Below are positions 9,407-60,486 of a DNA stretch of 64,000 nt, one piece after another. The translations under genes and the position numbers were made by a program. The first letter of the stretch is position 1; each line of letters opens with the position of its first letter. The stretch comes from Snodgrassella alvi (GTDB taxonomy: Bacteria > Pseudomonadota > Gammaproteobacteria > Burkholderiales > Neisseriaceae): positions 124,001 to 188,000 of the forward strand of contig NZ_MEIK01000040.1 in assembly GCF_002777855.1 (NCBI RefSeq), in the 5' to 3' direction. The notes beneath the pieces were generated by a model. The model searched no databases and was not told the DNA's origin. It saw only the letters and a list, made by a program, of their open reading frames with translations.

Positions 9407-9747
9407 GATACAAATTCTTGAAAAAACTTTATCATTGTATCGTGAAATCGCAACAGAATACAGAGCTTAGCCCGTGTAAAACCGCGAAATTAAGCACAAT
9501 TAAAAACATGTAGGCCACATCAGCCAGCCTTAAATTATATAAATAACAAATTCTTTAATCTGCTAAAAAACCGATGTTTTACCAATTACCCATTGCAAAT
9601 CAGGACAGACCTACATTATCCTTTTTTCATAGAAAGAGATAGATATTAACTATAAAAATTTGACCGCCTCAATTAAAATAGCTCAATCTGAACTTAACCT
9701 GTGTATCTGCTCAACCAATTAGTCGATACAGCTTTATGGAAACTTAA

Positions 9748-10029
9748 ATGGCAACTGACAAACTAAACAGCAAAGATAAAATGGCATTGAAAGCGCGTGC
9801 ACATCAGCTGCATGCAGTGGTACTGATTGGCCAGAACAGATTAACACAAGAAATCATCACAGAAACCAGCCGCAATCTGGATGCACACGAACTGATTAAA
9901 GTACAAGTGGCAGGGGACGACCGCACTGCACGCGTATCCATTGCCGAAGCTTTGTGCTCTGCAACAGGTGCTGAACTGATACAACATATAGGGAAACAGC
10001 TGGTGTTATATCGCCGCAAAACCGAATAA
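9748..10029 (+). CDS. yhbY: CRM-domain ribosome-associated RNA-binding protein YhbY
   Basis: This 93-residue single CRM-domain protein is thought to bind pre-50S particles. The family pattern is plain: LKARAHQLHAVVLIGQNRLT (containing the GxxG-like loop), LDAHELIKVQV, and the end GAELIQHIGKQLVLYRRK. GGAAA precedes the ATG. The 341 bases between it and rlmE are AT-rich and must hold both divergent promoters, but I could not place either with confidence. Confidence 0.93.
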   Translation: MATDKLNSKDKMALKARAHQLHAVVLIGQNRLTQEIITETSRNLDAHELIKVQVAGDDRTARVSIAEALCSATGAELIQHIGKQLVLYRRKTE

Positions 10030-10032
10030 ACA

Positions 10033-10062
10033 AAAAGCGATTCATTCTATGAATCGCTTAGT
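10033..10062. terminator. Hairpin between convergent yhbY and greA
   Basis: An 11-base stem from AAGCGATTCAT (10035-10045) and its complement ending at 10059 has a three-base loop. The T-tract on the plus strand is weak, while on the minus strand it runs into TTTTTG. It may serve both genes. Confidence 0.65.
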
Positions 10063-10114
10063 TATTTGAGCGGTGGCATTTAACCAGAAGAAAAATCAGC
10101 ACTCAGCAGGCTGA

Positions 10115-10591
10115 TTAAATATAGAAAACCTCTAGAATTTCGTATTCACGCACCCCACCCGGTGCCTGAACTTCAGCCACATCGCCTTCTTCCTTACCAA
10201 TGAGTGCACGTGCTATCGGCGAACCAACAAAAATCTTAGCTTTTTTGATATCGGCTTCATCTTCTCCAACAATCTGGTAACTCACCACTTCCTCAGTTTC
10301 CAGATCCTGCATTTTCACAGTAGCGCCAAATACCACCTTACCATCGGCATTGGTTTCTTTCGGGTCGATAATGTGTGCTAGAGACAATTTGTGCTCAATT
10401 TCTGCAATGCGACCTTCAATAAAACCCTGTTTTTCCTTGGCCGCTTCATATTCTGCATTTTCGGACAAATCCCCATGCGAACGAGCTTCAGCAATCGCTT
10501 CAATTACCGCCGGACGAGCTACGCTCTTCAGTTCTTGTAGTTCCTGTTTCAGCAAATCAGCGCCCAATATGGTCAACGGAATTTTTTGCAT
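10115..10591 (-). CDS. greA: Transcription elongation factor GreA
   Basis: GreA rescues backtracked RNA polymerase by stimulating transcript cleavage in the secondary channel. The 158 residues equal the E. coli length. The N-terminal coiled coil carries the acidic tip in [20 protein letters not shown], followed by the FGATV and C-terminal FKBP-like region with [15 protein letters not shown] chose the second of two adjacent ATG codons because GGAGA then has normal spacing and the start matches the family (MQKIPLT). A terminator-like hairpin lies in the leader between the promoter and this start. Confidence 0.97.
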
Positions 10592-10647
10592 CATATTTCT
10601 CCAAGATACCACAGCTAAATACACTTGCGGTATTTCGTATTAATAAC

Positions 10648-10679
10648 AAAAAGCAAGCCGCCCGATTCCGGCGGCTTGC
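10648..10679 (-). terminator. Terminator-like hairpin in the greA leader
   Basis: The ten-base GC-rich stem GCAAGCCGCC/GGCGGCTTGC (10653-10662, 10670-10679) has a seven-base loop. On the minus strand it is followed by TTTTTGTT. It lies between the greA promoter and the greA start, so termination here would release an RNA of roughly 55 nt. See the matching finding. Confidence 0.8.
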
Positions 10680-10709
10680 GCTGTTCCATGTATGCTATTT
10701 TAGCAGACC

Positions 10710-10739
10710 AGTATAAAAAATAGCAATGGTTATAACCAA
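10710..10739 (-). promoter_or_regulatory. Likely greA promoter
   Basis: On the minus strand, TTGGTT (10734-10739) and TATACT (10710-10715) are separated by 18 bases. This would start transcription near 10703 and give a leader of about 112 nt before greA. Confidence 0.6.
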
Positions 10740-11303
10740 GGCAGCCTGCACATCATAGTCAGTAAACTCACATTAGTATTTAAACTTAATTTAGTTATTC
10801 CTGACACATATTTAAGCAAAAATTCAACCCAGATAGGCAAAATTCAACTTAATTATCTTTGACTACTACTCTCTAATACTTTTACTCATTTTCTTGCTCT
10901 TTGAATTTGTTGGCTGAAGCGAATCAGTACAATATACAGCTAGTTAAACGAATTGACACATAGGGCAAAATTTACATTTACAGATATGTCCAAAAAGGTT
11001 GAGAAAATAAAAATTTTTATATAGAAATTTGCATTATTCAGTACAAAATCCCAAAAACTCACTACCAGTAATACTCGCTATATTTATTGAATAATTTATC
11101 GTCAATTTGGTTTGAGAGTAAAAAAATATTCATTTATTATAATATTTTATAATTGTTAGGATAATTTCTCTACTATTAACTAATATCGAATAGTACAAAA
11201 TTTTTATTTACGATAAAAATATCAATAATTTATAGCTTAAATATACTATTTATCAACCATATTTAATTTATAAATATCATTTTCAGCTGTGGTTAAACGA
11301 AAT
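10740..11303. other. AT-rich region without genes
   Basis: About 560 bases upstream of greA and beyond the end of ssb are strongly AT-rich, with many TATTT and AATAAT runs and stops in all frames. I see no ORF, tRNA-like fold or repeat in it beyond the greA promoter at its left edge. Confidence 0.7.
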
Positions 11304-11330
11304 GCCTTTTGGATAATTCATCCAAAAGGC
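11304..11330 (-). terminator. Hairpin after ssb
   Basis: A perfect ten-base stem GCCTTTTGGA/TCCAAAAGGC has a seven-base loop and lies 66 bases past the ssb stop. The T-tract on the minus strand is poor (ATTTCG), so it may be an RNA-stabilising end rather than a strong terminator. Confidence 0.5.
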
Positions 11331-11395
11331 AAAATCTTCATAGAATTTAAATTTCAAATTGCTGATTCAGATAAGAGACAACAAAAAAACCAATA

Positions 11396-11926
11396 TTAAA
11401 ATGGGATGTCATCATCAATATCATCTATTGGTGCCGGTGCAGGTGCTGGACGTGGAGCCTGACGACGTGGAGCAGCCGGTGGTGGGCTTGAGGCGGCAGG
11501 TGCAGCATCATAGCCACCCTGACTAAAATTACCACCCTGAGCATAATCAGCTCCGCCGCCCATCTGATCATAGCTGCCACCTGCTGCGCCTGTATCATTG
11601 CGGCTACCCAGCATTTTCATTTCACTTCCGATGATGTCATAAGCCGTTCGTTCGATTCCATCCTTACCACTATATTTACGGCTCTGGATACGGCCTTCGA
11701 TAAATACCTGACTTCCCTTGCGCAGATACTGGCTGGCAATTTCGCCCAGTTTGCCAAACAGCGTGATATTGTGCCATTCAGTTCGGGTCTGGCGCTCGCC
11801 ATTACGGTCACGCCACTGTTCATCAGTAGCAATGGAAAAGTTGGTTACGGCATCGCCACTAGGCATATAACGCGTTTCAGGGTCTCGACCCAAACGGCCA
11901 ACCAGGATGACTTTATTAACAGACAT
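11396..11926 (-). CDS. ssb: Single-stranded DNA-binding protein
   Basis: SSB coats single-stranded DNA in replication, repair and recombination, and recruits partners through its C-terminal tip. The 176-residue protein begins [20 protein letters not shown], continues through the OB-fold ([28 protein letters not shown]), then a Gly/Ala/Pro/Gln-rich linker (about 115-165), and ends with the acidic tip [15 protein letters not shown] precedes the ATG. It lies 80 bases after the lytic transglycosylase gene, with a weak hairpin between them (11950-11969). Confidence 0.97.

Positions 11927-59331: not shown

Positions 59332-60486
<1,155 letters not shown>

Follow-up and report, generated by a model that had tools for sequence, protein, structure and literature searches.

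A conserved terminator-like hairpin in the greA leader of Snodgrassella alvi and other Neisseriaceae, GraL-like in layout

The greA leader and its hairpin

The window analysed here, a stretch of 64,000 nt from a Snodgrassella alvi contig, carries on its minus strand greA, which encodes a transcription elongation factor GreA of 158 aa (10591-10115, ATG at 10591; PF03449 (GreA_GreB_N), 1.8e-29; PF01272 (GreA_GreB), 3.3e-27). The gene is flanked by ssb, which ends at 11396, on one side and by the convergent yhbY on the other. The closest named GreA is that of S. alvi App4-8, with 97% protein identity, and Snodgrassella belongs to the Neisseriaceae. The greA leader contains, downstream of the promoter and also on the minus strand, a 10-bp hairpin (10679-10653) with the 5' arm GCAAGCCGCC (10679-10670), a loop of 7 nt (10669-10663) and the 3' arm GGCGGCTTGC (10662-10653), followed by the U tract TTTTTGTT (10652-10645, with its T run at 10652-10648), where a short leader RNA is predicted to end. 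The ten-base GC-rich stem with its T tract is present as described in an earlier note on this DNA. The hairpin alone has a fold energy of -20.7 kcal/mol, and the surrounding 48 nt reach -24.1 kcal/mol (z -4.40).

A single promoter passed the scan at this leader, at 10726-10697 on the minus strand, comprising a -35-like TTGCTA (10726-10721), an 18-nt spacer and a -10 hexamer TAAAAT (10702-10697) preceded by TG. The earlier note had placed the promoter at 10739-10710, but the scan-listed site is better supported, since relatives have a TANNNT-type -10 upstream of the stem at a similar distance. Judging from the -10 position, transcription is predicted to start 7 nt downstream, at 10689, which is the A of an ATG. 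The predicted leader is consequently ~98 nt, and the predicted short RNA, from 10689 to 10648, would measure ~42 nt instead of ~55 nt.

Closer to greA, whose Shine-Dalgarno-like TGGAG is located at 10603-10599 (minus strand), there is a second, weaker hairpin (10637-10602, minus strand) with a core of the AUACCG...CGGUAU type; its outer pairs extend to the Shine-Dalgarno sequence. It is kept in the genus, and no covariation was detected in it among 12 of the 13 genus leaders, the divergent G012 being left out. Across the family, this region had z < -2 in 40 of 75 distinct regions, with unrelated sequences, and the hairpin was absent in some genera.

For the assessment of chance, a comparable hairpin was defined as one with at least 10 bp, at least 8 GC pairs and a T tract. 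None appeared in 2000 shuffles of the 148-nt leader or in 1000 shuffles of the 804-nt intergenic region, and when shuffling was restricted to the 50 nt around the hairpin, one of 5000 was comparable. A terminator scan of positions 9500-11500 returned six sites, with 1.4 expected by chance, and the greA-leader hairpin had the most G-C pairs among them. Throughout the window, a terminator-like hairpin on the same strand, within at most 200 nt of upstream intergenic DNA, was found for 4 of 55 crudely delimited genes, including greA; for another of the four (59332-60483), the hairpin follows rpmA (ribosomal protein L27 by Pfam). The greA-leader hairpin is not expected by chance.

Conservation in Neisseriaceae and beyond

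We searched 83 Neisseriaceae genomes for greA and found it in 80, the remaining three (G007, G034 and G103) giving neither a greA match nor a hit with the covariance model described below. All 80 leaders, from 12 genera, were compared; sampling was uneven, as one genus accounts for 46 of the 80 genomes and the genus of the window for 13. The hairpin is present in all 80 leaders, in 79 by a scan that required an arm containing AAGC, GAGCCG or GGCCGCC, and in G086, where the scan had preferred a different stem, by manual placement. Without the arm requirement, the same stem was recovered in all leaders except those of G086, G067 and G071, in which another stem was preferred. The 5' arm contains AAGCCGCC in 59 leaders, AAGCCG in 74 and AAGC in 77, and natural variants within the family include AAGCCACC, AAGCCGTT, AAGCTA and AAGCC only. 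The loop and the segment 5' of the stem vary.

In an alignment of the 64 distinct leaders, 97.2% of cells were paired, and six of the ten pairs had changed on both sides, in 26 such cells. On each of five measures, none of 500 shuffles reached values as high as those observed. The outer pair alternates between G-C, A-U and U-A; at inner pairs, G-C is replaced by A-U in one g12 and one g5 genome, and C-G by U-A mainly in g5. The stem therefore covaries within Neisseriaceae. Covariation was the check that the earlier note had proposed, and its own possible objection, that the stem might not be conserved in close relatives, fails because the stem covaries.

The order of the parts is also maintained. 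A -10-like hexamer was identified 5' of the stem in 79 of the 80 leaders by script and in G086 by hand; the scripted hexamer of G013 is poor, and a better one is visible farther upstream. The gap between -10 and stem measures 13-25 nt in 76 of the 80 (overall range 9-42), and TG lies one base before the -10 in 75. The predicted start is ~10 nt upstream of the stem in the window, and most relatives have a distance of 6-18 nt, with a median of 12 across 63 distinct leaders; short RNAs in the family would then measure 30-67 nt (median 47). From stem to ATG, the spacing is at most 70 nt in 40 of the 80 leaders and at most 30 nt in 4. In all 80, the best promoter-like site in the 60 nt above the hairpin outscored the best site below it, between the loop end and 20 nt before the ATG, and in 22 no candidate -10 was present below. 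Transcription of greA from the upstream promoter would therefore have to cross the hairpin. A main greA promoter below the hairpin was rejected on these scores; the earlier note had named a start downstream of the hairpin as what would undo its reading, and such a start is contradicted here at the level of promoter-like sequence. The order of promoter, hairpin and start in all 80 family leaders likewise points to an action of the hairpin on greA's own leader, as the note had proposed.

Ordinary 3' terminators from the same genomes, those of rpmA and of the greA 3' end, resemble the leader hairpin in having a stem and a T tract, and several of them also begin with AAGCC. Their letters turn over between genera, whereas those of the greA leader stem do not. 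The mean run of nucleotides shared between genera in the 5' arm was 7.68 for the greA leader (35 genomes, 66 genus pairs), compared with 4.04 for the rpmA terminator in the same 35 genomes, the scan having found a terminator in 35 of 40 rpmA regions, and 3.62 for the greA 3' terminator (28 pairs from 22 genomes); for arms that had been shuffled, the value was 3.3-3.4 nt. A second conservation measure agrees, with 0.79 for the leader and 0.58 for the greA 3' terminator (56 of the 80 genomes). These comparisons suggest that the letters of the leader stem are far better conserved from genus to genus than those of the two ordinary terminators, the size of the excess being provisional because the controls are two, the arm requirement raises the leader value somewhat, and each control was the best-scoring hairpin in ~200 nt and may not always be orthologous.

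We also considered whether a default terminator of the family occurs at greA by coincidence, and rejected this for the genus of the window on palindrome counts: across its 13 genomes, the exact AAGCCGCC...GGCGGCTT palindrome has a single copy in 10 (including G000), two in G006 and none in G001 and G007. Other Neisseriaceae have 0 to 10 copies per genome, and it is commoner in some of them. Elsewhere in the window, the L21 and L27 genes have upstream a perfect 12/12 sigma-70 promoter with TG before its -10 (61333-61305, minus strand), and their terminator (60621-60597) begins with AAGCC as well.

Outside the family, greA was retrieved from 20 of 24 genomes of the same order, one for each of 20 other families. 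A loose scan of these 20 leaders gave a hairpin in 6, with the same stem only in G049 and a related one in G040. Among 69 further greA loci (L042-L110), the scan found no hairpin in 51 and other stems in the remaining 18. The greA-leader hairpin is present in Paludibacterium (L040) and Vogesella (L041); the latter was missed by the scan because of its short T tract, and the stem is nonetheless plain in the sequence. A carB gene upstream of greA also occurs without a hairpin of the Neisseriaceae type, as tested at L043 and seen by eye in other loci. Six loci of Methylophilaceae/Methylotenera (L046, L051, L078, L091, L099 and L106) have in common a different hairpin before greA, of the AACCACGC...GTGTGGTT type, which is possibly a second, independently conserved greA leader.

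A covariance model, R1, was built from the 64 distinct leaders. Within the family it matched 80 of the 83 genomes, and the top match of each of the 80 was at greA (tables read by eye), by construction, as the model was built from these leaders. Against 300 genomes of the order, R1 matched 12 non-family genomes at E <= 0.001: the match is 69-79 nt upstream of greA in three of them (G155, G250 and G282) and away from any greA-like ORF in 8, the remaining genome being G364. Other terminators of the family reach the scores of the weaker greA leaders (31.5 bits and up), so R1 alone does not identify the gene. One hairpin away from greA, at G021:C1:534405-534450, scored 46.7 bits, the next non-greA match being at 36.9 bits.

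Possible roles of the leader hairpin

The explanation we favour, with good confidence, is premature termination at the hairpin in a GraL-like manner, by which the level of greA is tuned, GreA being the likeliest input. The parts of this reading differ in strength. Termination at the hairpin in vivo is highly probable; that the terminator tunes the level of greA is likely; and that GreA itself is the input has about an even chance. In the proposed mechanism, every transcript from the greA promoter would pass an intrinsic terminator ~10 nt after its predicted start. A fraction of the polymerases would terminate within the U tract, giving an RNA of ~40-50 nt, and those that read through would make greA mRNA. 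Control would then act on a young elongation complex, with polymerase just past promoter escape, where GreA can work; by feedback, a rise in GreA would increase termination and lower greA, as has been reported for GraL in E. coli. A segment of only ~10 nt in front of the stem could hardly accommodate a sensor or an antiterminator, so control is most likely exerted on the elongation complex itself. As the U tract TTTTTGTT is interrupted, termination may be weak.

Attenuation of the antiterminator type, in which an alternative structure sequesters a terminator arm, was rejected, as none is stable in the window leader and there are few in the family. In the window, the nascent RNA up to the loop reaches -2.5 kcal/mol, compared with -20.7 kcal/mol for the hairpin, and the medians in 63 distinct leaders are -0.8 and -19.0 kcal/mol. 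In 12 of the 63, excluding that of the window, 4 nt or more of the 5' arm take part in a nascent structure of -3 kcal/mol or lower; two of the 63 are at -5 kcal/mol or lower, the lowest at -13.2.

The very short leader, with no sensor and mostly no alternative structure, is also what would be expected of a constitutive brake, a terminator that reduces greA expression by a constant factor and responds neither to GreA nor to anything else; a fixed partial terminator needs nothing more. The terminator is common to this and to the tuned one, and the two differ in regulation. A fixed reduction could, however, be obtained from a weaker promoter, and a conserved stem sequence (7.68 nt, against 4.04 and 3.62 in the controls) would then be unneeded. 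We regard the brake as possible, with a probability clearly below that of a regulated terminator.

The conservation of letters in the stem raises a further possibility, which we put forward tentatively and hold to be somewhat unlikely: the GCAAGCCGCC/GGCGGCTTGC consensus may be a sequence that is read by something, most likely RNA polymerase with GreA in early elongation, or another protein or RNA. If so, Neisseriaceae greA would have a sequence-specific, GreA-responsive terminator without a sensor domain, and would provide a second case for solving how GreA represses itself.

A promoter followed after ~42 nt by a strong terminator has the look of a minimal small RNA gene, and the hairpin could accordingly be the 3' end of an independent gene in front of greA, whose RNA acts in trans while greA is expressed by leakage. 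The conserved stem sequence could be counted in its favour, and an action in trans has been reported for E. coli GraL (PMC6829880, available portion). The loop and the 5' segment, where sites of target pairing would be expected, vary, however; in the window leader only ~10 nt before the stem are unpaired, and in all 80 genomes the element is found at greA. Such an independent gene is improbable in our estimation; an action in trans of the short leader RNA, taken for itself, is rather doubtful.

In the genus of the window, the ATG found here at 10689-10687 (minus strand) recurs in all 13 leaders, 7 nt downstream of the -10 and in frame with Lys-Pro-Pro codons in the 5' arm, and it is conceivable that a leaderless ORF (MEQRKPP...) runs through the stem and that its ribosome controls the hairpin. 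The length of this ORF ranges from 15 to 63 codons, however, its frame is not kept past the stem, and outside the genus an ATG is found at that position in only 7 of 67 leaders. Leader-peptide attenuation is thus very unlikely in this genus, and it was rejected as a general mechanism.

Least probable of all, and rejected, is a terminator of the upstream gene unrelated to greA control: four loci (L040, L041, L248 and L253) do have a same-strand carB ending 76-99 nt upstream of the hairpin, but the promoter-like TACAAT lies between carB and the hairpin in these four, just as a -10-like hexamer precedes the stem throughout the family, and in the window, where no gene ends at the hairpin, as had been noted earlier, ssb ends ~716 nt upstream of the stem and is followed by a terminator-like hairpin of its own (11331-11303, minus strand), which separates it from the greA unit.

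Comparison with GraL and other greA leaders

Terminators in greA leaders are already known. Those of greA genes in several phyla were published in 2010 (Naville and Gautheret, PMC2965389), and the attenuators of the greA/rnk family resemble the leader described here in that a terminator follows the greA promoter and precedes the gene. They differ from it in that an antiterminator is reported there for each cluster, in the available portion of that paper, while none was seen in the leader of the window. The words 'Neisser' and 'Neisseria' are absent from its main text. The earlier note knew of no description in Neisseriaceae, and none of a greA-leader terminator was found among the matches listed in open-licence PMC: the available portion of PMC4176332 holds nothing on a greA leader, its sole term match being the word 'greater', and that of PMC5383966 has greA as NMB1430 in an expression table and nothing on its leader. 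Considering that a predicted intrinsic terminator lies between the putative greA promoter and the start codon in the window and in 80 of 80 family leaders, we regard the Neisseriaceae leader as a newly recognised example of such leaders that is, as far as sequence comparison can tell, real, conserved and GraL-like in layout.

The label 'GraL-like', used in the earlier note, holds for this layout and does not extend to sequence. The Rfam family RF01769 ('Enterobacteria greA leader', Rfam 15) scored 127.5 bits on the E. coli greA region, gave no match in the window at the gathering score and none at E <= 1 in three Neisseriaceae leaders (L141, L159 and L172), and membership of this family was rejected on the latter result. 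The stem sequence also differs from that of E. coli GraL. E. coli has two promoters at GraL, whereas one passed the scan in the window, and the segment before the stem is 19 nt there, compared with a predicted ~10 nt here. This segment matters for feedback in E. coli, where scrambling it also reduces the effect of GreA (PMC6829880, available portion), and it varies in Neisseriaceae.

The gene is the same in both cases, as is the order of promoter, short 5' segment, intrinsic terminator, tens of nucleotides and greA. The predicted short RNAs are also of similar size to those of GraL, with 49-59 and 37-47 nt, products of imprecise termination, reported for GraL in the available portion of PMC6829880, and a predicted ~42 nt in the window and a median of 47 nt in the family; an RNA of ~40-50 nt from the greA promoter is what we predict for Neisseriaceae. 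The shared layout, albeit with a different stem and a variable preceding segment, favours a GraL-like terminator, and an input from GreA would be an extension of this likeness. According to the same portion of that report, read-through at the GraL terminator in E. coli amounts to about one third of transcripts, and catalytically active GreA represses expression in vivo by way of GraL in cis. Its effect is seen only in vivo and an additional factor is suspected; the self-limitation of GreA in E. coli requires leader sequence and probably a further factor. Exchange of the arms of GraL abolishes most of the repression by GreA, while termination in vitro persists (PMC6829880, available portion), a result that fits the conserved letters of the stem in Neisseriaceae. 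A second leader with the same layout, another stem and natural stem variants, conserved throughout a family, offers a ready set of sequences for finding which part of such leaders matters.
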